IMG/VR virus record: IMGVR_UViG_3300025598_000044
Coordinates: 1-61,874 of that record
DNA from: a virus
Length of the DNA stretch: 61,874 nt
Reading direction: 5' to 3' (one strand)
Shown: positions 701-61,874 of the stretch, one piece after another
Layout of the letters: each line of letters starts with the position of its first letter
Numbering within the stretch: position 1 is the first letter of the stretch
Position numbers and translations under genes: made by a program
The notes under the pieces: model-generated
The model's database searches: none
Told to the model about the DNA's origin: nothing
Seen by the model: the letters and a program-made list of their open reading frames with translations, nothing else

Positions 701-1438
701 TTACCACATGGTATCCGGGGGGCCAAACTTGCCATCGTAGTCGTAGTGCCCAACGAGGACACTGCAATCGACAGCACAGCGATAGCCATATTTGCGAGCA
801 TCCGCCCAGAAGTATAGGTCTTGTGTACCTACGCCCTGACCGTCCTGCCCGTTGATGGTCTTGAACCAAGGCTTCCTCAAACGCTCATCTTTGAACATCG
901 ACATACGCCACAAATTGAACCCCATGCTGGTGCCGCAGCACTCGACAAGTTCTCCTGCGCGGGGAACCTGCGGACGGAAGTTCAACTGAGCATCGTTCGG
1001 ATCACCCCAGATGTGGGCACAGCCTTCTGGCCCCTTGCACCAGTACAGCCCGCCAATGCAGGAGTATTCGGGGTGCTTTTCCATCTGGCCAATCAACTTG
1101 ATCAGCCCGTCGCTAGGCGGGCAGTTGTCCGACTCAATCGTGAGGATGTATTCCCACTGACTGAGATCGGGGTGAGCAAGGATCTCTGAGATGCAATTGC
1201 TATACGCCTCGCCAACTTCCTGACCGAGCGCCAACATGCGATGCACGGCTTGATTGGGAGGGAACACGAGAGACCAATGCGCGAAAGCCACCTTCGTAGG
1301 AATCGTGGCTGCGGAAGGAACGATGACGATGACGCGCTGCTTCTTCCAAGACCCGCCTTCCAATACGCGAAGAGAAGACTTGGGAAGATCGACGTTGTGA
1401 TAACCAGAATCGTGTGTTGTGACGATCTGAGGTTTCAA
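701..1438 (-). CDS. glycosyltransferase-like protein (GT-A fold)
   Basis: A 245-residue protein with family 2-like features: a nucleotide-sugar binding N-terminal half, the acidic segment TIESDNCPPSDG (about residues 100-111) in the place of a DxD motif, and the aromatic, Gly-rich acceptor region GGLYWCKGPEG. The start appears to be TTG at 1436-1438. It overlaps the TGA of the upstream fibre gene and is preceded by GGAG seven bases away, and no other good start lies nearby. Together with the adjacent methyltransferase it probably modifies a carbohydrate on the virion or the host surface. The donor and acceptor are unknown. Confidence 0.75.
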   Translation of the reverse strand: MKPQIVTTHDSGYHNVDLPKSSLRVLEGGSWKKQRVIVIVPSAATIPTKVAFAHWSLVFPPNQAVHRMLALGQEVGEAYSNCISEILAHPDLSQWEYILTIESDNCPPSDGLIKLIGQMEKHPEYSCIGGLYWCKGPEGCAHIWGDPNDAQLNFRPQVPRAGELVECCGTSMGFNLWRMSMFKDERLRKPWFKTINGQDGQGVGTQDLYFWADARKYGYRCAVDCSVLVGHYDYDGKFGPPDTMW

Positions 1439-4233
1439 GGAGTTACTCCAAAGATGACGTAATGTTTGTTGCCAGAAGCGGCATTTTGCTGAATGGCGGT
1501 GTACGCCACAGTGCCCGGAAGAGCGGTAGAAGTAGCGAGGTTGAATCCCAGTTGTTTAAGCCTATTGTTTGCCGAGGAAGAAGAAATGTAATTAGGCGCT
1601 ATGACCCCAAGAGCCGAAGCAGACTGCGAGAACGGCTGCACGAACAGCATAGAGCCGACCAAGTTAGCTGTCACGCCACTAGTAACAGAACTCATCTGTA
1701 CGCCAAGGAAATACGTACCGTTTGCAGCCATAGACCCTGTAAATGGCAGGTTGAGGATCTTGGCACCAGAGAGTCCTGAAACGGCGGCAGCAAATTGAAA
1801 GCTGCTCGCCGTGCTATTGGTGCCTTGAGCCAACGTATACCCATAAGTATTGATTGTTGCGCCACCTGTGGTAGCGCCCGAACCGCTTTGGCTGAACAAC
1901 ATTGATGACGAAGACATCAGCGTAAACTGAGATGAATTCGTCCCGATATCTTGCTGATACAAACCATAGTTCAACGTCGTACCAACGGACCACGCCGAGG
2001 CTCTAGTGATGATCGGATTGATGTAGGTAACGAACTGTACGCTTGAGAAAGACACGTTGTTAGGCGGATACAGCGGTGCTACGTAAGGCACGTTTTGGCT
2101 AAGTGTACCCGTAGCGGTTACAGCCATAGGAGCGGGTTCCCAGAAATTCAACGTGTTGGCAACGCCACTCACGGTGCTGACAGAACCGATAATTGAAACC
2201 GTTGCGCTACCGCCGTTCGTTGATCCGGACAACGTGATGTTGTTACCGCCCACCAGCACAAGCTGGTTCGTGGCCATGCCCGAAACGCCTGACGTATTGC
2301 CCAAATTGGACATGCCACCGGAATGCGGAATAGCACCGATGTTGACCGTGCTTCCCGTCGTTGCAACGGTGACCGCGCCCGATCCGGCAATTAGCGACGA
2401 GGCCGGGGCATTGATCGTCAGCGTACCGCCCGAACTGTTGGTCGCCAAAGATTGCGATAGGCTGATGCCGTTGGTTCCGACCAGTACAAAGTTACCCGCA
2501 GTTGCAAAGCCCGTCGTACCCGCCGTGTTGCCAAGGTTCGACACACCGGGGAAAGCGCCGCCACCCGCGCTGGAGAACGACGCAGACGCCGTAACCGTAC
2601 CGCCCGAAAGCCCAAACGTGACGTTGTTGCTGTTGGCAAATGAGATGGCGCTGGCATTGGTCGTGGACCCTTGAGCGGTCACGTTGATACCGCTGATCAG
2701 CCCCGTTGTGGACGGAACGGTATAGCTCGCAACGATAGTACCGTTACTGTTGCTGAACTGGAGTCCATTCACAAGCGCCGAAGCAAAATATAATGTCTGA
2801 AACGTGCTTGAACCGTTAAATGCGCTAAAAACCTGATTGCTCTGGGTAGCCGAGATGACAATCCCAGACCCTGCGCTTGCGCCTACGCTAACGATACCTG
2901 CACCACTGACAGACAACGACCTTGCATCATACGTGCTGCTGCTGGAACCTATAGTGTTGCCCGCAGCGTAAAGACCGACGCTCTGGTTGGTCTGCGAGTA
3001 ACTTGCCGTCAGCGAATTTGAGGACATACCGAACGCGATATTGCCCGCACCGCTGCTGGTGAAGTTCAAGGCATTGACATTGCTGCTCGTCGTGCCCGCA
3101 GAGACGTTGAACGCATAACTTGCGGCAATCGCGCTAGAGCCGCCCGTCGTGGTCGTGTAGAACGAGATGTTATTTGAGTTGGTATGGATCAACGTGCTGA
3201 ACGCGTACGTGCCGTTGGATCCCGCCGCGTAGAACGACTGCAAGCCACCCACGGTAGGACCGGATACGGTCACCGTCATGCCAAGGCTATTTGTAGACCC
3301 GGACAATGTGACGTTGTTACCACCCGCCAACACAAACTGAGGCGGGGCGCTATTCGTGAAGTTGATACCGCTGGAGTTGGTACCGCTGATACCCAACGTC
3401 TGATACGGAACGCCCAGATTGATGGTATTGCTATTCAGCGAATAACTGAGGTTACCCGTGACCGAGATCGACTGTACCGATTGGCTGGCACTTGCCGTAA
3501 TGACCTGATTGCCCAGCGTGTTGGTCGTCGTGCCAAACGTGACGTTGTTTGAGTTCTGAAACTGAACCGTACCCGTCGAAAACGTATTGGACCCGTTGAC
3601 ACCGATAGCCCCGACGCCGCCGCCTGCACCGCCACCCGTCGTCGCATGGATGGCAATCGTCATGTTGCCAGAGGCGTTGGTCGTGCCCGAGAACGTAATG
3701 TTGTTGCCCGCAGCCAGAAGGATCTGGTTGGTGCCGCTCGACGTACCCTGCGTACCGGACGCGCTGAATGTGATCGGCGGCGCAACGCTTGCCGTGATGA
3801 CCGAGTTCGTTCCGCCAAACGAGACGTTGTTGCTGTTGGAGAAGACAACGGTTCCGGTGCTGCCCTGAAGCTGCAACGTGCTTACTGCGGGCTGTACCGA
3901 CTGGGAGAAGCTGGCCGTTATCGTGCCGTTGATGCCACCAAAAAATACGTTAGCGCTGCCACTGCTACCGAAAACAATATTGCCGGAGCTACTCTGCACC
4001 AGAACGCTGTTTTGGGTCTGGATGGACTGACTACCACTGACCGTGGCCGTGATGTAGCCGTTGGAGTTGAGTCCGAATGAGACGTTGCCGCCGTTGGAGA
4101 ACGCCCCAACGACCTCGCTGCCCACCATACTGACAGAGGCGACATGCTTGCTGTTCCAGTTCGACGGCTTGATTTCGTATGCCGTGTTATCCGGGGTCGT
4201 TGCAGTCAACGAGTGATATACGGTAACAGGCAT
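1435..4233 (-). CDS. repeat-rich tail fibre protein
   Basis: A 932-residue protein very rich in Ser, Gly, Asn and Thr. From about residue 40 to 690 it repeats a degenerate beta unit of the form NNVSFG-x(3-8)-ITAS roughly twelve times, as expected of a trimeric beta-stranded fibre shaft. The C-terminal 240 residues lack the repeat and look like a globular tip domain (segment NTLNFWEPAPMAV onward). It ends in an overlap with the glycosyltransferase gene. Receptor recognition is inferred from composition and from its position among spike and fibre genes. Confidence 0.75.
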   Translation of the reverse strand: MPVTVYHSLTATTPDNTAYEIKPSNWNSKHVASVSMVGSEVVGAFSNGGNVSFGLNSNGYITATVSGSQSIQTQNSVLVQSSSGNIVFGSSGSANVFFGGINGTITASFSQSVQPAVSTLQLQGSTGTVVFSNSNNVSFGGTNSVITASVAPPITFSASGTQGTSSGTNQILLAAGNNITFSGTTNASGNMTIAIHATTGGGAGGGVGAIGVNGSNTFSTGTVQFQNSNNVTFGTTTNTLGNQVITASASQSVQSISVTGNLSYSLNSNTINLGVPYQTLGISGTNSSGINFTNSAPPQFVLAGGNNVTLSGSTNSLGMTVTVSGPTVGGLQSFYAAGSNGTYAFSTLIHTNSNNISFYTTTTGGSSAIAASYAFNVSAGTTSSNVNALNFTSSGAGNIAFGMSSNSLTASYSQTNQSVGLYAAGNTIGSSSSTYDARSLSVSGAGIVSVGASAGSGIVISATQSNQVFSAFNGSSTFQTLYFASALVNGLQFSNSNGTIVASYTVPSTTGLISGINVTAQGSTTNASAISFANSNNVTFGLSGGTVTASASFSSAGGGAFPGVSNLGNTAGTTGFATAGNFVLVGTNGISLSQSLATNSSGGTLTINAPASSLIAGSGAVTVATTGSTVNIGAIPHSGGMSNLGNTSGVSGMATNQLVLVGGNNITLSGSTNGGSATVSIIGSVSTVSGVANTLNFWEPAPMAVTATGTLSQNVPYVAPLYPPNNVSFSSVQFVTYINPIITRASAWSVGTTLNYGLYQQDIGTNSSQFTLMSSSSMLFSQSGSGATTGGATINTYGYTLAQGTNSTASSFQFAAAVSGLSGAKILNLPFTGSMAANGTYFLGVQMSSVTSGVTANLVGSMLFVQPFSQSASALGVIAPNYISSSSANNRLKQLGFNLATSTALPGTVAYTAIQQNAASGNKHYVIFGVTP

Positions 4234-19169: not shown

Positions 19170-19556
19170 TTAACCTGCGCGGCCAATGCCACGGGGATCT
19201 TCTACAGTGCCGTCAACGGAATCATCATTGATAATCCGCCATTCGGTTCCATGAATCTTGATACGGGTACCCGAATAGGCCCGTACAACAACAAAATCGC
19301 CCACTTTGCACCACGGACCGGACGGAAAACGAACCGGATCTTTGTAAGCATCAGGGCCAATTTTGGCTACAAAAAGCACAATTGTGGTCTGTTCTTCGAC
19401 TCGAACGGACTCACTGGGCTTGATAAGGCCCGTATTGCCGAATTCTTCTTCGACTTTGGGTACCATGCAGAGCAATTTGAACCCAACAGGGTCTGGCAAC
19501 TGCTTTGCCTTACGTTCTGCCTCAGATAGCGTCTTATCGACGTTAATGTCGCTCAT
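19170..19556 (-). CDS. GroES-like co-chaperonin
   Basis: A 128-residue protein matching the Cpn10 layout: GFKLLCMVPKVEEEFGNTG (N-terminal strand plus mobile-loop region), then a barrel part with IGPDAYKDPVRFPSGPWCK, GDFVVVRAYSGTRI and the C-terminal EWRIINDD. It is longer than bacterial GroES (about 97 residues) at both ends, as in phage co-chaperonins. It lies between portal and scaffold genes. It probably replaces host GroES on host GroEL to fold the capsid protein, as T4 gp31 does; that role is inferred. Confidence 0.82.
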   Translation of the reverse strand: MSDINVDKTLSEAERKAKQLPDPVGFKLLCMVPKVEEEFGNTGLIKPSESVRVEEQTTIVLFVAKIGPDAYKDPVRFPSGPWCKVGDFVVVRAYSGTRIKIHGTEWRIINDDSVDGTVEDPRGIGRAG

Positions 19557-19752
19557 CAATCAACTCCTCGTCGTTTGCGACCTTGTTGGCCGTGTCTTTG
19601 ATCAACTCAATTGCATACGTAAGCCCCTGAACCAGCCCGACAATTCGGCGGTATTCAGCTTCCGTAGTCCCTCGCAGTACCTGTGCAGTAAGAGAACTGA
19701 TCATGCTTTCTAATCGCTTGATCAAAAACTCCGCTGCGGTATCCGTTTGCAT
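19543..19752 (-). CDS. small conserved phage protein, unknown
   Basis: A 69-residue mostly helical protein (AAEFLIKRLESMISSLTAQV, then VQGLTYAIELIKDTANKVAN). It lies between portal and co-chaperonin genes; its end overlaps the co-chaperonin start by 14 bases and contains the ribosome binding site for it. No named domain is recognised. It may be a minor head-assembly factor. Confidence 0.65.
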   Translation of the reverse strand: MQTDTAAEFLIKRLESMISSLTAQVLRGTTEAEYRRIVGLVQGLTYAIELIKDTANKVANDEELIDERH

Positions 19753-24527: not shown

Positions 24528-25193
24528 TTTGCATTCGCAATGGCGAAAGAAGCTTAGAACATAACATAAAACTATTTTCAAAAATATATACCCCCCTCCC
24601 CCATCTGAAAAGAAAAAGCAAGGGGGTAGGTTCCTATAAACAAGTGGGTGGGGGGTTGGATTTTAAAGAAGCAGATCGGGTGTGCAGATTATTGAGCATG
24701 GCTGGCGCGCGGGGGGCCCGTTGTGATTTTGGGGGGTGGCCTCCTAGTGGGAGTCAAGGTGCGAACCGTGGCGAATTGCTCGGTTTCGGCTGATCGTGGT
24801 CGTTTTGACAATCATCGTCAAATATGGTCTTATAGATGCAAGTAACGACGTGACGTCGTCGCTAGTCGGATCCCACCCGCAAGAGGTGCAAACCCCCGGA
24901 CGGATCCGCCGGATGCTGAAGGCTAGGGCCTTGCAGCCACGTGGACCGAAAAGCGCGCAAGCGTGAGTACCGGCGAGTGTGGGCGACGTGCAAGAGCAGC
25001 CATTAGGAATACCGAAGGCGCGTAATCGCCCGTACACCACTGGCACCGTGTACGGATTGGATTGCAACCGGATACAGACCGGAACATGAAAAAGCGCATC
25101 AGCCCGTGCTGATATTGAGAAGGGCGCAATCTCGCTACCCTTCATAATGTCAACATAGACTCATCTTTATACCAATCAATCGGAGTGCAAATC
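24528..25193. promoter_or_regulatory. divergent control region between late and early blocks
   Basis: About 660 bases with no well supported gene. It holds several palindromes: TTGACAATCATCGTCAA (24805-24821, one mismatch, overlapping a TTGACA hexamer), ACGACGT-G-ACGTCGT (24845-24859) and CCGTACAC-N10-GTGTACGG (25030-25055). An AT-rich segment next to C runs (ATATATACCCCCC, about 24585-24597) lies just upstream of TerS. Divergent promoters and operators, and possibly the origin or packaging site, are expected here. No single promoter can be fixed by eye. Confidence 0.55.
24744..25145 (-). CDS. doubtful open frame in the control region
   Basis: An open frame of 133 codons in late orientation inside the divergent region. 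The translation is rich in Cys, Arg and Ser (for example FGIPNGCSCTSPTLAGTHAC) and shows no domain I recognise. No ribosome binding site precedes the ATG. The region also holds several palindromes. It may be chance coding in a GC-rich control region, or a small regulatory protein. Confidence 0.25.
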   Translation of the reverse strand: MKGSEIAPFSISARADALFHVPVCIRLQSNPYTVPVVYGRLRAFGIPNGCSCTSPTLAGTHACALFGPRGCKALAFSIRRIRPGVCTSCGWDPTSDDVTSLLASIRPYLTMIVKTTTISRNRAIRHGSHLDSH

Positions 25194-26781: not shown

Positions 26782-26958
26782 ATGAAGAAATACGTTGTCA
26801 GGATTGAAGTAGAACCTTCTGAATCAGACTTTGAGTTTGACTTTGAGTGTCAGGCGATGAACAACGACCATGCGGAAGAGCAAGCCATGGAGCAGATCAA
26901 CCGGTACGAAGCAGACGAGGCCCACATCAACGCGCCATCAGGAGGCGAACCGAAATGA
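26782..26958 (+). CDS. 58-residue acidic early protein
   Basis: A short protein starting MKKYVVRIEVEPSESDFEFD and continuing with an acidic, helical half (EEQAMEQINRYEADEAHINA). GGAGGTGTGAC precedes the ATG, and the stop overlaps the start of the next gene (ATGA). It belongs to the same tightly packed unit as its neighbours. No known domain. Confidence 0.6.
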   Translation: MKKYVVRIEVEPSESDFEFDFECQAMNNDHAEEQAMEQINRYEADEAHINAPSGGEPK

Positions 26959-28001
26959 GTATTCCAGACCTGCATCTGTACAACGCGTACAAAGAAATAT
27001 TCAACAAGACTGAACCCCTGCGCGGCACGCACGTGCGGCCAATGGGCAAACGACGCAGCAAGACGTGGGTGCTGATCGAAAAGACCGGATACGACGCAGC
27101 CCTGCAACAAGCAACCGACCCCGTGTACATCGTGCGGCTGTACGAAACCGACATTGTGAAGGTCTACCCGGACGGCACGTGCATAGTGGGTACTGGCGGA
27201 TGGGATACCAACACGACGGCGAGGAGAATATCGGACTCGCTGCGCAAGGGCTTCGGGTATCGCGTGGCGTGGGAGATGGGTGCGTTCAAGCAAGCCAACC
27301 GCGTGTGGCTGTACAGCAGGGGACAGTCCAACTACACAAAGATCCCGCTGACCGCAGACGGCATCAGGTTTCGGGTTAAGGGCGGCGGGCTGGAGCCTAT
27401 CGACTACAAGGTGCAGATCAGCGTGGCTGACCGCAAGGCAACCGCACCGCAGTACGCCAAGATGAGACCGTTCTTCGACTGGATGAAGTCGTTCGTGATG
27501 CTAAGCGACGGCTGGCTGATGCACCAGACACGTAAAGAAGTTTTAGGGACCGTGGAGAATGAAGCAGACCCAGCAGAAGTTCGAGCTAGCCGGTTCGGGT
27601 ATCAGATGCCACCTAAATCCCCATCGGGTAAGCCCGTGCCGTATGCGTTCATGCTCTGGGCTGCGAATGGTGGGTACGCCCCGGTGCAGAGTGATCGGCA
27701 GTTGGCTATCGAGTGGCTGACCAACCTGCACGAAGATGACTATTTGTTGACCTTTTGCCTTTTAGCGTATATAAATGATCCCGGCAACTATGGTTATTCC
27801 CATGCCGGTATGAACGAGGGGCTGCGACCTGTCGAGACGGTGGAGACCAAGTTCAACGGCTGGCCGCGTCGTCTTGTGTATTACGACGTGAAACAAGATC
27901 TGAAACGAATCAAGAGGGCTATACAGAAACTTGTTGTGAGTGAATCGCAGAAGATTGTTGAGATCCAACCGGACGACAAGATCCGGCGCAATGTTGTCTG
28001 A
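26955..28001 (+). CDS. early protein of unknown function
   Basis: A 348-residue protein from the ATG at 26955, preceded by AGGAGG. It has a basic N-terminal part (MGKRRSKTWVLIEKTGYDAA), a beta-rich section with IVKVYPDGTCIVGTGGWDTN, and a helical C-terminal half. I see no catalytic motif. It lies immediately upstream of the AAA+/VWA cassette and could be part of that unit, though an intergenic GGAGTGCAA element separates them. Confidence 0.65.
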   Translation: MSIPDLHLYNAYKEIFNKTEPLRGTHVRPMGKRRSKTWVLIEKTGYDAALQQATDPVYIVRLYETDIVKVYPDGTCIVGTGGWDTNTTARRISDSLRKGFGYRVAWEMGAFKQANRVWLYSRGQSNYTKIPLTADGIRFRVKGGGLEPIDYKVQISVADRKATAPQYAKMRPFFDWMKSFVMLSDGWLMHQTRKEVLGTVENEADPAEVRASRFGYQMPPKSPSGKPVPYAFMLWAANGGYAPVQSDRQLAIEWLTNLHEDDYLLTFCLLAYINDPGNYGYSHAGMNEGLRPVETVETKFNGWPRRLVYYDVKQDLKRIKRAIQKLVVSESQKIVEIQPDDKIRRNVV

Positions 28002-28028: not shown

Positions 28029-29105
28029 ATGAGTGCTATCAATTTCGGCAGCGAGATTTCGCTGCAAGAGTTCGCCCATTCCGTTGCGACGGTTGGCGAG
28101 TACGTGACCATCATTGGCGAGGGCGAGATGGGGCTTGGCAAGTCCGCCATGCTGAGCGAGATCGTCCGACTGCGCCCGACCCACAAGCCCATGATGATCG
28201 ACTGCACGTTGCTCGACGTGGGTGACTGCGCGTTGCCGTTCGTGGTTGAAGAGAACGGTATGAAGGTGACGCGCTTCGCTCCCAATGCGCGGTTCGGGTT
28301 CAATGCCGGTGGGCCGGTCGCTGTGTGTCTTGACGAGATCGGCAAGGCGTCCCGCCCCGTGCAGAACGTGTTGCTCACGTTGTTGTACGAGAAGCGTCTT
28401 GGTGACAACTACCTGCCAGAAGGTAGCATCGTGTTTGCGACCAGCAATCTGGGCATTGAAGGTCTAGGCGACCTGATGCAGAAGCACGCTCTCAACCGTG
28501 CGACCAAGGTGCGCATCCGCAAGCCCGACGCTGACGAGTGGATTGAGAACTTCGCAATGCCCAAGGGGCTGGAGGCAACTATCATTGCGTGGGTCAAGCA
28601 GTTCCCGCATTGCCTTGCAGCGGCGACCGATTCGACGCAGCGTGAGAACCCGTACATCAACAACCTGCACGATGCTGGCCGCAGCGCGTTCGTGACCGGA
28701 CGTTCGTTGGAGAAGGCGAGCCACATCGCTGCACGGCGTGCCGAGTTGGGCGAGGCGACGACCATTGCATTGCTGGCCGGTACCGTCGGTGAGTCGGCTG
28801 CGCGTGATATGCAAGCGTTCTTCACGGTGGCTGACAAGTTGCCGACATGGGATGCCATCGTCTCCGACCCGGACAATGCCAAGTTGCCTGACGACACGGT
28901 TGCCAAGTGCATCCTCACGTTCGGTGCGGTGACGCGTGTCGATAAGGACACACTCAGCAAGTGGATGCGGTATGCGCAGCGCATGGACAAGGAGTGGCAG
29001 GCGTTGTTTGCGACCAGCGTGATGAAGGTGGCCAACAAGCAAGCGTTCTGCGTGATGAACAAGGACTTCAAGGACTGGGCGCTTGCGAACCAGTGGCTGT
29101 TCTAA
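28029..29105 (+). CDS. MoxR-type AAA+ ATPase
   Basis: A 358-residue AAA+ protein. Walker A is GEGEMGLGKS (K38), Walker B AVCLDEIGKA (D102, E103), and a sensor-1-like segment FATSN follows after the loop LLYEKRLGDNYLPEG. Early placement of the P-loop and the insert pattern fit the MoxR/AAA_5 group, which usually works with a VWA-domain partner. The next gene encodes just such a partner 15 bases downstream. Such pairs act as chaperones that remodel or metallate targets (known for NorQ/NorD, CbbQ/CbbO, RavA/ViaA). The phage target is unknown. Confidence 0.85.
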   Translation: MSAINFGSEISLQEFAHSVATVGEYVTIIGEGEMGLGKSAMLSEIVRLRPTHKPMMIDCTLLDVGDCALPFVVEENGMKVTRFAPNARFGFNAGGPVAVCLDEIGKASRPVQNVLLTLLYEKRLGDNYLPEGSIVFATSNLGIEGLGDLMQKHALNRATKVRIRKPDADEWIENFAMPKGLEATIIAWVKQFPHCLAAATDSTQRENPYINNLHDAGRSAFVTGRSLEKASHIAARRAELGEATTIALLAGTVGESAARDMQAFFTVADKLPTWDAIVSDPDNAKLPDDTVAKCILTFGAVTRVDKDTLSKWMRYAQRMDKEWQALFATSVMKVANKQAFCVMNKDFKDWALANQWLF

Positions 29106-29120
29106 TAACAGGAGAGTGCA

Positions 29121-30293
29121 ATGAAGTTGAGTGCTGAACAGCGTGTGCAGCGTGCACACGTATGGCTGATGCGTAACCCCAAGTACTGTCTGTACTCTGG
29201 GATCATGATGATCGGTAAGACCGAGGTGTGCGACGACGTGCCCACGGCTTGCACCGATGGCGTCAATACCAAGTATGGGCGCGTGTTCGTAGACAAATTG
29301 TTGGATGAGGAACTTCGGTTCCTCATTCTTCACGAGAACCTGCACAAAGCGTTTCGGCATCTTATCGTATGGCGCAAGTTGTACGACCAAGATCCTCGAC
29401 GCGCCAACCGTGCGTGCGACTTCGTTATCAACCTGATGATTCGCGACACCGATCCGGAAGGTAAGGATGTCAAGTTCCCGGCTGGCGGTTGCCTTGACGA
29501 GCAGTATCGCGGACTCGACGCGGGTACTGTGTTCCGCTTGCTTGAGGACGAGGATGACGACGATGAGGGTGGCGACGGTGGCAGCGATGGCGAGTGCTTC
29601 GATGACCACGACTGGGACAGTGCCAAGGAGATGACCGAGGCCGAGAAGGCTACGCTTGAGAAGGACATTGACCAAGCGTTGAGACAGGGCAAGTTGTTGG
29701 CCGGTAAGATGAACGGCAACATCCCCCGCGAGATCAACGAGGCGCTCGAACCCAAGGTTGACCCCCGTGAGATATTGCAGGACTTCATTACCAGTCATTG
29801 CAATGGCAAGGACGAGTCAACGTGGCGCAAGCCACATCGACGGTGGGTGAGTCAGGACGTGTATATGCCGAGCATGATCGGCAACACGGTTGGTCGGTTG
29901 GTCATCGCTATTGATATGTCTGGCTCCGTGACGCAGCAGGTTGCATCACGGTTGCTTGGCTTCGTCAAGTTGGTATGCGAGCAGGTCAAGCCCGACGGCA
30001 TCGACCTGTTGTATTGGGACACGGACATATGTCGTCACGAGACGTATGACGCCGGTCAACTCGACAACTTGTTGCACAGCACCAAGCCAGCGGGCGGTGG
30101 TGGCACCGAGCCGCAATGCGTACCGGACTACATCAAGCAGAAGCGTATCAATGCCGAGTGTGCAATCGTATTGACCGACGGCTATGTGTCGAGTTGGGGT
30201 AACGGGTGGCCGTGTCCGGTGTTGTGGGGTATCACGACCAAGGGCATCGTGGCTGCGAATGGCAAGAGTTTTTACATGGACATCAATAACTAG
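29121..30293 (+). CDS. VWA protein with metallopeptidase-like N-terminal domain
   Basis: A 390-residue protein. Residues about 1-110 match the metallopeptidase-like domain placed before VWA-like domains (DUF2201 type): HENLH (71-75) is an HExxH zinc motif, followed by RRANRACDFVINLMI. An acidic Asp/Glu/Gly-rich linker lies near 140-165. The C-terminal VWA-like domain has the MIDAS motif DMSGS (265-269). It follows the AAA+ gene and probably forms a functional pair with it. Whether the zinc motif is an active protease is not known. Confidence 0.83.
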   Translation: MKLSAEQRVQRAHVWLMRNPKYCLYSGIMMIGKTEVCDDVPTACTDGVNTKYGRVFVDKLLDEELRFLILHENLHKAFRHLIVWRKLYDQDPRRANRACDFVINLMIRDTDPEGKDVKFPAGGCLDEQYRGLDAGTVFRLLEDEDDDDEGGDGGSDGECFDDHDWDSAKEMTEAEKATLEKDIDQALRQGKLLAGKMNGNIPREINEALEPKVDPREILQDFITSHCNGKDESTWRKPHRRWVSQDVYMPSMIGNTVGRLVIAIDMSGSVTQQVASRLLGFVKLVCEQVKPDGIDLLYWDTDICRHETYDAGQLDNLLHSTKPAGGGGTEPQCVPDYIKQKRINAECAIVLTDGYVSSWGNGWPCPVLWGITTKGIVAANGKSFYMDINN

Positions 30294-30302
30294 GAGTGCA
30301 TC

Positions 30303-31136
30303 ATGATTCAGAATAGTGCAATGTTGATTGATCTCAATCTGGCGGTCTGGCTGGCTCGCAAGATGGATCGCAAGGTCTCGCAGGAAGTGGACGCGAACAA
30401 GAACACCAAGACTCGCGCGGGCAACTATCACAAGCAGTTGCTGCCGGGTATGGACAAACTTGACGCGCTGCATAGCATCGCCAATGCGACTCGCGCTTGG
30501 CATTACGAGAACACGCTGCCGTGGTCGGACAATGGCACGCGGTTGCTGCCTATGTCCAACTTCTTTGAGTACAAGGCCAAACTCAACGAGTGGCAACGCG
30601 CGTTCGATGCGGCGGCTGATGAGTTCTACGCCGAGTATCCCAATCTCATCAGCGCGGCAGCGCTCAAGTTGGGCGACCTGTTCAACCGTGACGACTACCC
30701 GCAGCTTGAGGTCATCAGGCACAAGAATCGGTTCGCGTACACGTTCATGCCGGTGCCGATGGCCGGTGACTTCCGTGTGGATGCACCCGAGGCTGCACAG
30801 CGCGAACTGCGTGAGCAGTACGAGAAGTACTACAACGACAAATTGCAGGACGCCAATCGTGATCTGTGGGAGCGGCTGCACGAATGTCTCAAGCACATGA
30901 GCAACAAGTTGGCAGGTGAGGACAAGCAGATCTTCCGTGATTCGCTTGTAACCAACACTACCGAGTTGTGTTCGATCCTCACGCGCTTGAACGTGACCAA
31001 CGACCCCAAGTTGGAGACTGCGCGACGTGAAGTTGAGAAGGCGCTTGTCGGTCTGACTGCGACTGACTTGCGTAAGGATACCGAGCTGCGTCATGAGACG
31101 AAGCGTCGGGTTGATGAAATTCTAAATATGTTCTAA
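30303..31136 (+). CDS. cassette partner protein, possibly DUF3150-like
   Basis: A 277-residue, charged, mainly helical protein. It has NAVWLARKMDR-type N-terminal helices, a central NLISAAALKLGDLFNRDDYP followed by FMPVPMAGDFRVDAPEA, and a long helical C terminus. Its size, position after AAA+ and VWA genes, and the central motif recall DUF3150 proteins that accompany CobS/CobT-like pairs in integrative elements; I cannot verify this. GGAGTGCA precedes the ATG. Probably the third member of the AAA+/VWA module. Confidence 0.6.
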   Translation: MIQNSAMLIDLNLAVWLARKMDRKVSQEVDANKNTKTRAGNYHKQLLPGMDKLDALHSIANATRAWHYENTLPWSDNGTRLLPMSNFFEYKAKLNEWQRAFDAAADEFYAEYPNLISAAALKLGDLFNRDDYPQLEVIRHKNRFAYTFMPVPMAGDFRVDAPEAAQRELREQYEKYYNDKLQDANRDLWERLHECLKHMSNKLAGEDKQIFRDSLVTNTTELCSILTRLNVTNDPKLETARREVEKALVGLTATDLRKDTELRHETKRRVDEILNMF

Positions 31137-31147
31137 GGAGTGCAATC

Positions 31148-32002
31148 ATGGGTATCAAGTTCGATCCGTCCAAGAAGTTGGGCGAGGATATGGGCATAGA
31201 GATCACCAACATCTGCCAAAAACTGCTCAAGTCATCGCGGTTGATGCGGTATCAGTACGGCATCACCATCACACCCACGGCGCATTACGAAGTGCGCTTT
31301 GCGGATGACCGGCTCGCATTAGGTGGGTACCCCAATGCCCACATGGGCTACTGCGGTAGGCTCACGTATCAGAGGAACGATAAAGGCAATTGGGTATTTG
31401 TTGTCGAGGCTCCGACAATCCACAACGAGAAGCTCAAGAACCGGGGTAGCCGTGCGAATACCAAGTTCGCACGTACTCCAGAAAAAGCAATCGAACTTAT
31501 CAACAACTTCGTCAAGCCTTTGGACTGGAAGAACTTGTTCGATACGCACTCACGTACTGCGCGGGGCGAGCATCGCAGTTGGATCCGTGAAGCAGAGGAG
31601 AAGTATCAAAGGCTGTTTAACGAAGCGGCTGGCTATTCGTTTGGAACAATCAACGAGACGTTGCTGCAAGCGTTGATTAAAGAGCGGTCGTACTCAGGCA
31701 ATTTCGCCACCGAGTATCTCAACAGTCTGACTGACCAGAAAGTTGTGGACGCGTACAAAGAGCGAGTCGGACGAATGACTAAACCGTGGCCGTCGCGCGT
31801 CGCTTATCTTGGAGATGCCGAGGCTGTGATTGCGAACATGGGGCAAGAAGGCATCGTTACTGGCATCCAGCTACCGGCTAAACCGGAAGACTTGGCAAGT
31901 GATATTCAGGAAAAGATTGCGCTCCTCAAATTGATGGACACGCGATTTGTTCCTCATGTTGGATACCGTGCTTGCGATACACTATACTACCTTTACGAGT
32001 AG
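31148..32002 (+). CDS. fourth protein of the AAA+/VWA cassette, unknown
   Basis: A 284-residue protein preceded by GGAGTGCAATC. A beta-rich N-terminal half (QYGITITPTAHYEVRFADDR; GNWVFVVEAPTIHNE) is followed by a helical part with IREAEEKYQRLFNEAAGYSF and a C-terminal SDIQEKIALLKLMDTRF. No motif is recognised. It shares the initiation element and spacing of the three genes before it, so it is likely coexpressed and may be the substrate or adaptor of the ATPase module. Confidence 0.6.
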   Translation: MGIKFDPSKKLGEDMGIEITNICQKLLKSSRLMRYQYGITITPTAHYEVRFADDRLALGGYPNAHMGYCGRLTYQRNDKGNWVFVVEAPTIHNEKLKNRGSRANTKFARTPEKAIELINNFVKPLDWKNLFDTHSRTARGEHRSWIREAEEKYQRLFNEAAGYSFGTINETLLQALIKERSYSGNFATEYLNSLTDQKVVDAYKERVGRMTKPWPSRVAYLGDAEAVIANMGQEGIVTGIQLPAKPEDLASDIQEKIALLKLMDTRFVPHVGYRACDTLYYLYE

Positions 32003-32020: not shown

Positions 32021-32308
32021 ATGACTCCAGAAGCTAAAGTAAAAGCTAAAGTCAAAAAGCTATTGTTGGAATACAACGCTTATTTCTTTATGCCCGCCAC
32101 ACATGGCTACGGTAGCTCTGGAGTCCCTGACATCGTTGCGTGTTTTAACGGTAGGTTCATAGGCATCGAATGTAAGGCTGGGTCTAACAAACCCACAGGA
32201 TTGCAATTGATGAATTTGAACTCCATTGAACGGACTGGTGGACTCAGTTTTGTAATCAACGAATACAATCTGGGAGAACTAGAAAACAAGCTAAAGGAAA
32301 TCAAATGA
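32021..32308 (+). CDS. VRR-NUC nuclease
   Basis: A 95-residue protein of the minimal VRR-NUC type: a helical start (TPEAKVKAKVKKLLLEYNAY), then YGSSGVPDIVACFNGRFIGI and ECKAGSNKPTGLQ, giving the PD...(E)xK active site (SGVPD then ECK). Stand-alone phage VRR-NUC proteins are structure-specific endonucleases that can cut branched DNA such as Holliday junctions. It is close to the replication genes, which suits a role in resolving replication or packaging intermediates. Confidence 0.85.
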   Translation: MTPEAKVKAKVKKLLLEYNAYFFMPATHGYGSSGVPDIVACFNGRFIGIECKAGSNKPTGLQLMNLNSIERTGGLSFVINEYNLGELENKLKEIK

Positions 32309-34107: not shown

Positions 34108-34310
34108 GCATGAAACCCCATTGGTCACCGGGAATCCCGTTGCGTTTTGTCGAGCGCGACGGCAAGAAGATTCTACAGCAAGTGTGGCTGCGTTATGCTT
34201 TCACGGTGCGAGATCATTGGGAGCAAGTTGACGGACATGAGTGGCGCGACGTTCCTATGGATTACGAATGTGAAGACCCGTCCTATTGGTCGCAAGAGAA
34301 AAAAGAATGA
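34104..34310 (+). CDS. 68-residue early protein
   Basis: A Trp-rich small protein (FVERDGKKILQQVWLRYAFT, then HEWRDVPMDYECEDPSYWSQ). Preceded by GGGGAAAGAG; its stop overlaps the polymerase start (ATGA). Beta-rich. It may be coexpressed with, or bind, the polymerase, but no motif supports a function. Confidence 0.55.
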   Translation: MSMKPHWSPGIPLRFVERDGKKILQQVWLRYAFTVRDHWEQVDGHEWRDVPMDYECEDPSYWSQEKKE

Positions 34311-36133
34311 GCATCATCACGATTGACTTTGAAACGTATTACGACAAGGACTACAGCCTGTCGAAGATGACGACGGAGGAGTACATCAACGATCCACGCT
34401 TTGAAGTCATTGGTATGGGCATGAAGGTGGATGACGGCCCGAGCAAGTGGTACTCCGACGCGGCTGAGATAGAGGCTGTCTTGGAAAGAGGCCACAAGGA
34501 GTGGCAGGGACACGCCATCCTCTGCCACAACACAATGTTCGATGGCGCGATCTTATCGTGGCGTTACGGCATCAAACCGAAGGCATGGCTTGACACGTTG
34601 TGTATGGCTCGCGCCATCAATGGGGTAGATGCTGGAGGATCTCTAAAGAAGTTGGCAGAACGATACAACATTGGGGAGAAGGGCAATGAGGTCGTTAATG
34701 CTTTGGGTAAGAGACGCGTTGATTTCAACGCTGCTGATCTTTCTGCCTATGGTAAGTATTGTCGTAACGATGTGGATCTCACTCATCGTCTATTTAGTAT
34801 TCTTGCTAGGGATTTTCCTGTTGGAGAGCTTAGAGTCATAGATCAGACTCTCAGGATGTTCATAGAGCCGACGTTGCAGTTGAACCTGCCGAAGCTTGAA
34901 GCACATCTGGAGAACATCAAAGACAACAAGAGCAAGCTGATGGAAGCTACAGGCGCAAACAAAGATGCGCTCATGAGCAATGATCAGTTCGCCGGGTTGC
35001 TACTGAAGCTGGGCGTCGAGCCACCAAGAAAGGTAAGCCCCCGTACCGGAAAAGATACATGGGCGTTTGCCAAGACCGATGATGAGTTCAAGGCGCTTCT
35101 GGAACATTCAGATCCACGTGTACAGATGTTGGTGAGTGCAAGGCTGGGCGTCAAGACGACGCTGGAAGAAACACGCACGCAACGGTTTATAGATATAGCC
35201 AAGCGAGGGCGGCTGCCTGTACCGATCAAGTACTACGCCGCGCATACGGGGCGGTGGGGAGGAGATGACAAGATCAATCTCCAGAACCTGCCGAGCCGTG
35301 GGGCGTTTGCCGGGAAGCTCAAGCAAGCCATCGAACCCCCGCCGGGGTTTGTAATCATCGACAGTGACTCCAGTCAGATCGAAGCCCGAGTGTTGGCGTG
35401 GCTGGCAGGTGCAAAGGATTTGGTTGATTCGTTTGCACGTGGCGAAGACGTGTATAGAAAAATGGCTTCTGCTATATACGACAAGCCCGAAGATCAGGTC
35501 ACCAAGGAAGAACGCTTTGTCGGCAAGACCACCGTGCTGGGCGCAGGTTACGGCATGGGCGCAGCCAAGTTCCAGATACAGTTAAAGACGTTTGGCGTTG
35601 ACGTGGATTTGGATGAATGCAAACGCATCATCAGTGTGTACCGGAAAGCATACCCGGAAATACCCGCACTCTGGCGGCAGGGGGGTTTATGCCTAGCGGC
35701 TATTCTGTCTCAGAGCGACGCCAAATTTGGGGTCGTAGACGCTGTGAAGTTCGACCCAGAGGAGCGGGGCTTCCTGCTACCAAGCGGGCTGTGGCAGCGG
35801 TATAGCGGGCTGGCGAAGCATGATGGCCCTGATGGTGTGCAGTTTACATATACCACCCGGACAGGCGCTGTTAAGATATACGGCGGCAAGGTTGTAGAAA
35901 ACATCTGCCAAGCAGTTGCCCGTTGTGTAATTGCCGAGCAGATGCTGCGTATCGGGAAACGATACGAGGTCGTGCTGACCGTGCACGATGCCGTCGCTTG
36001 CATTGCCCCTGAAGCTGAAGCGGATGAGGCGATCAAGTACGTAGAAGAATGTATGCGTTGGAGACCGACGTGGGCGCAAGACTTGCCGTTGAATTGCGAA
36101 GCGGGCGTGGGGGCTAACTACGGGGAATGTTGA
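34307..36133 (+). CDS. family A DNA polymerase with 3'-5' exonuclease
   Basis: A 608-residue protein. The exonuclease domain has DFETYYD (D7, E9), CHNTMFDG and YCRNDVDLT. The polymerase domain has motif A DSDSSQIEA (352-360), motif B RFVGKTTVLGAGYG (K407, Y415) and motif C TVHDAVA (H560, D561). Leu411 occupies the position of E. coli Pol I Phe762, and Ala562 follows the motif C Asp in place of the usual Glu. There is no 5' nuclease domain. It is the replicative polymerase of this phage and overlaps the next gene. Confidence 0.93.
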   Translation: MSIITIDFETYYDKDYSLSKMTTEEYINDPRFEVIGMGMKVDDGPSKWYSDAAEIEAVLERGHKEWQGHAILCHNTMFDGAILSWRYGIKPKAWLDTLCMARAINGVDAGGSLKKLAERYNIGEKGNEVVNALGKRRVDFNAADLSAYGKYCRNDVDLTHRLFSILARDFPVGELRVIDQTLRMFIEPTLQLNLPKLEAHLENIKDNKSKLMEATGANKDALMSNDQFAGLLLKLGVEPPRKVSPRTGKDTWAFAKTDDEFKALLEHSDPRVQMLVSARLGVKTTLEETRTQRFIDIAKRGRLPVPIKYYAAHTGRWGGDDKINLQNLPSRGAFAGKLKQAIEPPPGFVIIDSDSSQIEARVLAWLAGAKDLVDSFARGEDVYRKMASAIYDKPEDQVTKEERFVGKTTVLGAGYGMGAAKFQIQLKTFGVDVDLDECKRIISVYRKAYPEIPALWRQGGLCLAAILSQSDAKFGVVDAVKFDPEERGFLLPSGLWQRYSGLAKHDGPDGVQFTYTTRTGAVKIYGGKVVENICQAVARCVIAEQMLRIGKRYEVVLTVHDAVACIAPEAEADEAIKYVEECMRWRPTWAQDLPLNCEAGVGANYGEC

Positions 36134-38729: not shown

Positions 38730-39113
38730 ATGAGTGAAGAAGTCAATGTCGATAGGTTGACCAAGATTTACGTAAAGATCCGCGAGAAGCGACGCGAGCT
38801 TGCGGAACAAGATGAAGCGTTGAAGGAACAGCTTGATGTCATATCCAACAAGTTGTTGGAGATTTGCAAGGAGCAGGGACTCAGCACCATGCGCACCGAG
38901 CATGGGACGGTCTCTCGTCGTGTCAACAAGAACTACTGGACGAATGACTGGGGATCGTTCATGGAGTTCATCAAGGAGCATGATGCTTTGAGCTTGCTCC
39001 AGCATCGTATCAACAACACCAACATGGCCCAGTTCTTGGAGGAACATCCCGACCTGCACCCGCCCGGACTGAACATGGATACCAACCAGATCATCGTTAT
39101 TACCAAACGCTAA
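38730..39113 (+). CDS. early protein of unknown function, coiled coil
   Basis: A 127-residue protein. The first 55 residues form a charged coiled coil (IREKRRELAEQDEALKEQLD). The rest has RTEHGTVSRRVNKNYWTNDW and a helical region ending in a beta strand (QIIVITKR). GGAGAGTGCA precedes the ATG. It lies between the helicase and the ssDNA-binding protein, so a replication or recombination accessory is likely; no named domain. Confidence 0.6.
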   Translation: MSEEVNVDRLTKIYVKIREKRRELAEQDEALKEQLDVISNKLLEICKEQGLSTMRTEHGTVSRRVNKNYWTNDWGSFMEFIKEHDALSLLQHRINNTNMAQFLEEHPDLHPPGLNMDTNQIIVITKR

Positions 39114-61642: not shown

Positions 61643-61874
61643 TCAAGTCGTCGCCACAGGTACCCAACCCACTTCGGTAGATACGTCTGCTCTGTACACC
61701 GTGCTATCCGCAGTAATGTAAGTCGTATCAGCGCTGAAGTAAGGCTCGGGGGGCACGACTGTAGTTACCGCAGCCCATGTAGCCCCCAAACCCGTTTCAA
61801 ACGCCGGAGATGGTTGGAACGCCCCGAACTGAAACGCGCCCCCCGCAGGAGCCGGTACGGAAATCGACGTCCAG
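61643..61874 (-). CDS. small fibre-region protein split by the contig ends (C-terminal part)
   Basis: This is the C-terminal part of the 89-residue protein that starts at 168-170. It reads TTVVPPEPYFSADTTYITAD and ends GWVPVATT before TGA at 61643-61645. The stop is nine bases before the fibre ATG, a normal operon spacing. The run of six G (61748-61753) is required for this frame. Confidence 0.7.
   Translation of the reverse strand, partial: WTSISVPAPAGGAFQFGAFQPSPAFETGLGATWAAVTTVVPPEPYFSADTTYITADSTVYRADVSTEVGWVPVATT
61742..61874. repeat. terminal repeat, right copy (contig closure overlap)
   Basis: Identical to bases 1-132 except for one extra G in a G run (61748-61753, six G). It marks where the circular genome was cut during assembly. 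The version here keeps the junction gene in frame, so it is likely the correct one. Confidence 0.95.

Follow-up and report, generated by a model that had tools for sequence, protein, structure and literature searches.

MoxR-type AAA+ ATPases and their VWA partners are described as sharing a general mechanism in which the VWA protein captures a peptide and ATP drives restructuring (PMC7159879). Such pairs are also phage-borne. N4 gp24 and gp25 belong to the 14 core genes of unknown function of N4-like phages (PMC4193335), and a MoxR pair, likened here by description only, has been reported in Bacillus thuringiensis phage 0305phi8-36 (orf66/orf63; PMC2147016). In group 2.2 jumbo phages, an AAA+ MoxR protein accompanies a VWA protein with an N-terminal metallopeptidase domain, for which the available part of the report proposes virion assembly with proteolytic processing, drawing on p618 and p892 of Acidianus two-tailed virus (ATV), and does not mention DUF3150, g0, or g4, the additional families treated below (PMC7824862). 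A first-pass annotation of the viral record IMGVR_UViG_3300025598_000044 had pointed to such a pair; as the N4 and jumbo phage reports show, phage MoxR/metallopeptidase-VWA pairs had been described before. Here, we analyze this pair in the whole 61,874-base stretch (the window), where an AAA+ ATPase and a DUF2201 metallopeptidase-VWA protein are encoded together with a DUF3150-like protein and two companion proteins, g0 and g4, by the following predicted genes:

26955 to 28001, plus strand: g0, 348 amino acids, ATG start with an AGGAGG Shine-Dalgarno sequence; linked upstream and outside the coordinates of the first-pass annotation
28029 to 29105, plus strand: AAA+ ATPase of the MoxR/midasin clade, 358 amino acids (phrog_1297, motifs, profile matches)
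29121 to 30293, plus strand: DUF2201 protein (HExxH and VWA), 390 amino acids (phrog_1314, PF13203, and PF09967)
30303 to 31136, plus strand: DUF3150-like protein, 277 amino acids (similarity to DUF3150 relatives)
31148 to 32002, plus strand: g4, orphan family, 284 amino acids; conserved last gene of the block

The four co-directional open reading frames between 28029 and 32002 lie where the first-pass annotation had placed them, with 9 to 15 bases between neighbors. Comparison with relatives indicates that the block is larger than these four genes and that g0, directly upstream, is a conserved fifth member. Scans of IMG/VR with the DUF3150-like and VWA alignments returned at least 583 and at least 573 confirmed relatives, respectively, and hundreds of uncultivated viral contigs contain the block. 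Across 168 loci annotated with hidden Markov models (HMMs), the recurring order is g0-AAA-VWA-DUF3150-g4-nuclease, and neighboring block genes are always on one strand; 66 loci show g0-AAA-VWA-DUF3150-g4, while 12 keep the same five genes together under three rearranged orders. g4 is present in 93 of the 97 loci that have at least 5.5 kb after the VWA gene, and g0 in 47 of the 52 loci that extend 5 kb to either side of it. Among 20 near-complete relatives (at least 50 kb), which were picked by VWA or DUF3150 bait so that the counts for these two genes are biased, the VWA gene was found in 20, DUF3150 in 18, g4 in 20 (19 at full length), and g0 in 18. The two relatives lacking DUF3150 (G019 and G021) are diverged from the window, with terminases 41 to 43% and polymerases about 30 to 40% identical over short stretches. 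Because they still keep VWA, g0, and g4, which in the G019 locus (L114) stand consecutively as AAA-VWA-g0-g4, the comparison speaks for a link of g0 and g4 to the pair itself and not merely to a shared genome order. The expected conserved co-occurrence in related phages was thus confirmed, but not for the original four genes alone, as g0 belongs to the set and one lineage does without DUF3150. Neither of the outcomes named beforehand as refuting the cassette, a lack of MoxR or VWA profile matches and a lack of conserved co-occurrence, was observed.

The AAA+ protein carries the Walker A motif GEGEMGLGKS, which includes K38, and a Walker B DE at D102-E103. Throughout, residue conservation was assessed in alignments of 107 to 133 relatives, and G35, G37, K38, D102, E103, the sensor-1 residue N140, R157, and R225 proved invariant; from their positions, R157 and R225 may serve as arginine finger and sensor 2. 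Among PHROGs the protein matches phrog_1297 (ATPase, 2e-40), and its profile matches the midasin AAA (1e-24), 2r44 (5e-6), and, weakly, NorQ (6e-5) in the PDB. Both midasin AAA and NorQ partner with proteins that have a VWA domain or a metal ion-dependent adhesion site (MIDAS). The near-invariant motifs and the midasin and NorQ profiles thus bear out an AAA+ ATPase of the MoxR clade, but the AAA_5 search that had been suggested stayed under threshold, with Pfam AAA_2 and AAA_5 both matching below their gathering cut-offs (AAA_5 at 19.4 bits versus 22). The weak NorQ match, and the use of the same AAA/VWA partnership by chelatase-type and NorQD-type systems (PMC7159879), would fit a CobST-, NorQD-, or CoxDE-like chaperone that supplies an enzyme of the phage or the host with metal, a role that we consider very improbable. 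No CobS or CobT Pfam model was among the matches at an E value of ≤1, which speaks against a CobS/CobT cobaltochelatase, and no chelatase large subunit was among the proteins tested. Chelatase-type VWA partners are not known to contain an HExxH domain.

The DUF2201 protein combines an N-terminal HExxHx4H domain (H71, E72, H75, and H80, with HENLH corresponding to H71-E72-x-x-H75) and a C-terminal VWA domain with a complete MIDAS, made up of DMSGS at 265 to 269 (D265, S267, and S269) together with T329 and D353, two residues absent from the earlier list. The HExxHx4H spacing differs from the HExxHx5H of metzincins. The HExxH residues are kept in 132 of 132 aligned relatives and H80 in 130 of 132, and the five MIDAS residues are invariant or nearly so. 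Since the motif residues of both enzymes are near-invariant, the alignments indicate that the AAA+ and DUF2201-VWA proteins are under strong constraint. The Pfam models DUF2201_N (4.6e-22, 79.4 bits, cut-off of 23.2) and DUF2201 VWA (5e-10, 40 bits, cut-off of 26.4) match well above threshold, in agreement with the first-pass reading of HENLH and DMSGS. The corresponding PHROG, phrog_1314 (3e-81), is labeled "HNH endonuclease," as is the DUF2201 metallopeptidase-VWA protein in many GenBank records. No HNH Pfam model matched the window protein at an E value of ≤1, the matches being to DUF2201 instead, and for many of the 601 phage records that match the VWA protein the label is apparently incorrect.

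The third protein is predicted to be mostly long helices, along with a minor beta portion (AlphaFold2 [AF2] predicted local distance difference test [pLDDT] of 86), and a fold search of the PDB with this model gave no match below an E value of 0.001. It has no match to Pfam DUF3150 (PF11348), whereas six of eight relatives do (best, 2.2e-5), and it is 27.7% identical (E value of 1e-22) to the annotated DUF3150 protein of Synechococcus phage MinM2, which supports the proposed relationship to DUF3150. The Pfam model is too narrow: it also found nothing in four metagenome-assembled genomes whose DUF3150-like proteins are detected by the phage HMM. N4 gp30 and phage G gp569 were considered as equivalents and show no similarity, and our literature search found no paper on DUF3150.

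This protein connects the phage block to plasmids, as the phage DUF3150-like HMM finds its plasmid counterparts with E values of 1e-55 and 9e-74. The conjugative plasmid pBMC401 of Burkholderia ambifaria has three contiguous homologues (phage HMMs: AAA, 6e-44; DUF3150, 1e-55; VWA, 6e-56) but in the order AAA-DUF3150-VWA, between PRTRC genes (PRTRC A/ThiF) and VirB genes. Simplicispira suum holds all three genes, with others lying between AAA and DUF3150, and the pair is present on pSYSA and pTHEOS01. Two Acidobacteriota or unclassified bins carry AAA, DUF3150, and VWA on one contig, and two further bins carry two of the three on contigs that end nearby; one bin contig with the module also encodes SSB, PRTRC_E, and Prok-E2_D. 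Overall, the cellular and plasmid versions adjoin SSB and PRTRC, type IV secretion, or UvrD and RecQ helicase genes, and g0 and g4 had no match in the plasmid and bin stretches searched. An Acidobacteriota contig (L171) and pBMC401 (L183) have the module beside PRTRC genes (E2-like, ThiF, and PRTRC_E), with VirB on the plasmid, hinting at a link between the machine and ubiquitin-like PRTRC cassettes. The first-pass proposal of a dedicated phage machine therefore has to be given up: judged by these homologues, AAA-DUF3150-VWA is a mobile-element module and not phage specific.

Other phages show partial versions. MinM2 (terminase 49% identical) and Planktothrix phage Pag-Yong1 encode a MoxR ATPase, DUF3150, and a VWA-like protein in one run but in the order AAA-DUF3150-VWA with extra genes between, with no match to g4 and no g0 in the stretch searched. 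The N4 pair is homologous (AAA, 20%; DUF2201-VWA, 23%), its genes lying close together upstream of replication genes; in contrast to the window, the downstream gp26 is annotated as a dCTP deaminase, and no g4 was found in the whole N4 genome and no DUF3150 or g0 in the stretch searched. Phage G has AAA and VWA. The block also differs from the ternary MoxR-vWA conflict systems, which involve VMAP, iSTAND, and FtsH (PMC7159879), in that its third component is DUF3150-like; no FtsH or STAND-type Pfam domain and no PADLOC match was found in the block proteins, which speaks against membership in that class.

By our comparisons, g0 and g4 represent two new, uncharacterized protein families tied to the AAA/VWA pair. 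g0 has an N-terminal KPIRGR...RPxGxRR motif and weak matches to PHROGs of unknown function. For g4, the predicted fold comprises an alpha/beta N-terminal part, long helices, and a C-terminal beta part (AF2 pLDDT of 89.7), and a PDB fold search gave no match below an E value of 0.001; its profile matches mostly designed helical proteins among PDB sequences, and its relatives, including the BFVD matches, are confined to uncultured phages. Fold matches of the human immunodeficiency virus reverse transcriptase type for the g4 and DUF3150-like models had template modeling scores below 0.2 and are meaningless, and an E2-like topology of the g4 N-terminal part, suspected from secondary structure, found no Foldseek support. 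Profile comparison showed no similarity between g0 and g4, and none of the MinM2 genes after VWA is related to g4. Several relatives have short extra open reading frames with only the g4 C-terminal part downstream of g4 (for example, L085:10317-10637 and L076:9714-10073). Both families evolve fast, with mean column identities of 16% for g0 and 19% for g4.

The near-identical initiation elements attributed to the block were found in part: similar elements are present, but GGAG[AG]TGCA, taken literally, occurs nowhere in the window. GGAGTGCA precedes the AAA, DUF3150, and g4 genes and GGAGAGTGCA precedes the VWA gene as well as a gene at 38730, the two elements together corresponding to GGAG(AG)TGCA with AG optional. 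GGAGTGCA is found also at 25182 and 42657, five times in the window overall, and because 5 of 100 shuffles reach five, the motif alone is weak evidence; its position just before three block starts carries the weight.

The setting of the block in the genome bears on its function. The record ends share a 126-base direct repeat (7 to 132 and 61749 to 61874), which suggests that the genome is complete and either maps as a circle or is terminally redundant. The terminase best matches those of DSL-LC04, 023Pt_psg01, HTVC027P, HTVC023P, and MinM2, and the major capsid protein (61 to 62%) and portal (42 to 45%) resemble those of DSL-LC04, HTVC023P, and 023Pt_psg01. By these three proteins (terminase, 57%; portal, 42%; major capsid, 62%), the virus is HTVC023P-like, near DSL-LC04 and HTVC023P-type pelagiphages, and does not side with Schitoviridae (N4-like phages). 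Terminase, portal, and capsid genes are on the minus strand, while the block sits early in a plus-strand run that continues with a small endonuclease, a DUF3310 protein, DNA polymerase A, an exonuclease, a helicase, and a primase-helicase, of which two genes serve as landmarks:

32021 to 32308, plus strand: small phage-type endonuclease (phrog_93, weak Hjc-like Pfam match); usually follows the block, and the replication gene run begins here
34286 to 36133, plus strand: family A DNA polymerase; indicates the replication arm, which shares its strand with the block

Elsewhere on the minus strand, a likely phage GroES co-chaperonin (19170 to 19559), 36 to 41% identical to the annotated GroES of DSL-LC04, HTVC023P, and 023Pt_psg01, lies between the portal and capsid genes, and a 932-amino-acid gene without a PHROG match (1435 to 4233) contains four copies of a 25-base repeat resembling CCAAACGTGACGTTGTTGCTGTTGG (2612 to 4097).

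Among the near-complete relatives, the VWA gene is on the DNA polymerase strand in 20 of 20 and opposite the terminase in 18 of 18. This bears on the idea that the proteins form a chaperone or protease that assembles or proteolytically matures head or tail proteins, as proposed in print for the same domain architecture (PMC7824862) and as suggested by ATV, where the p618 MoxR and p892 VWA proteins interact and were assigned a role in tail development (PMC4124505). We consider virion assembly doubtful here, as the block sits on the replication strand and not with virion genes as an ATV-type pair would. Moreover, DSL-LC04 and HTVC023P, whose virions are closely related to that of the window (62% identity of the major capsid protein), have no VWA gene, and the module is present on plasmids that make no virions, so virion assembly cannot be its sole role across all carriers.

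Our results lead us to favor, at roughly even chances, an ATP-driven remodeling machine, possibly proteolytic, that serves the phage replication program. Its mechanism class is well supported. Its target we infer from gene position alone, and the same holds for the first-pass suggestion that it possibly acts early in infection on a protein of the host or of replication. The AAA+ protein would form a ring, as expected for its clade, on which the DUF2201 protein would dock; the intact motifs suggest that the MIDAS site of the VWA domain captures a substrate peptide and presents it for pulling, or for cutting by the HExxH domain. The DUF3150-like protein would be a helical third component common to the plasmid versions, and g0 and g4 may be lineage-specific partners, most likely either adaptors for the substrate or clients encoded by the phage itself, a role that would fit their fast evolution. 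The machine would work in the replication phase, most likely remodeling or clearing protein complexes on DNA or the replication apparatus.

Gene order, motif invariance, co-occurrence, and strand linkage to replication genes are observed, and several points weigh against this reading of them. Ring assembly, peptide capture, proteolysis, and the target are all things we infer; the published view of the jumbo phage pair is a different one, virion assembly (PMC7824862); and the linkage of g0 and g4 could reflect shared genome ancestry only. Judged by terminase, the closest relatives that are cultured or named (DSL-LC04, HTVC023P, and 023Pt_psg01) lack a VWA gene, so that neither this virion type nor replication in every relative depends on it. 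Strand and position would also fit host takeover or counter-defense, with a host complex dismantled or inactivated and g0 and g4 acting as fast-evolving recognition factors. Their rapid divergence next to conserved AAA and VWA proteins, and the sharing of the module by different mobile elements, agree with such a role, but the block is near-universal in the bait-sampled lineage and placed with replication genes, more core-like than accessory, and PADLOC, whose library holds defense and not counter-defense models, gave no match for the five proteins. We regard takeover or counter-defense as possible but unlikely, to about the same degree as virion assembly.

Returning to a remodeling machine, we speculate, with slightly less confidence still, that a ternary machine made of AAA, DUF3150, and metallopeptidase-VWA is general to mobile replicons, both phages and conjugative plasmids, where it would clear or cut protein complexes on DNA undergoing replication; in phages, g0 and g4 would be two new families of interchangeable targeting subunits that redirect it.

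While the core AAA/VWA pair was already known from other phages and plasmids, the ternary phage form and its connection with plasmid modules are new, as are the fifth gene and the two orphan families g0 and g4. AAA/DUF2201-VWA pairs occur in hundreds of sequenced phages (the 601 records matching the VWA protein) and are core in N4-like phages; our literature search found no tested function for them in bacterial phages, and the CRISPRi-ART main text makes no mention of a MoxR or vWFA gene. Two tightly linked, fast-evolving partners and a third subunit shared with plasmids provide concrete handles for finding the target of a widespread machine, and the homologous pair of coliphage N4 makes the question testable in a laboratory phage.

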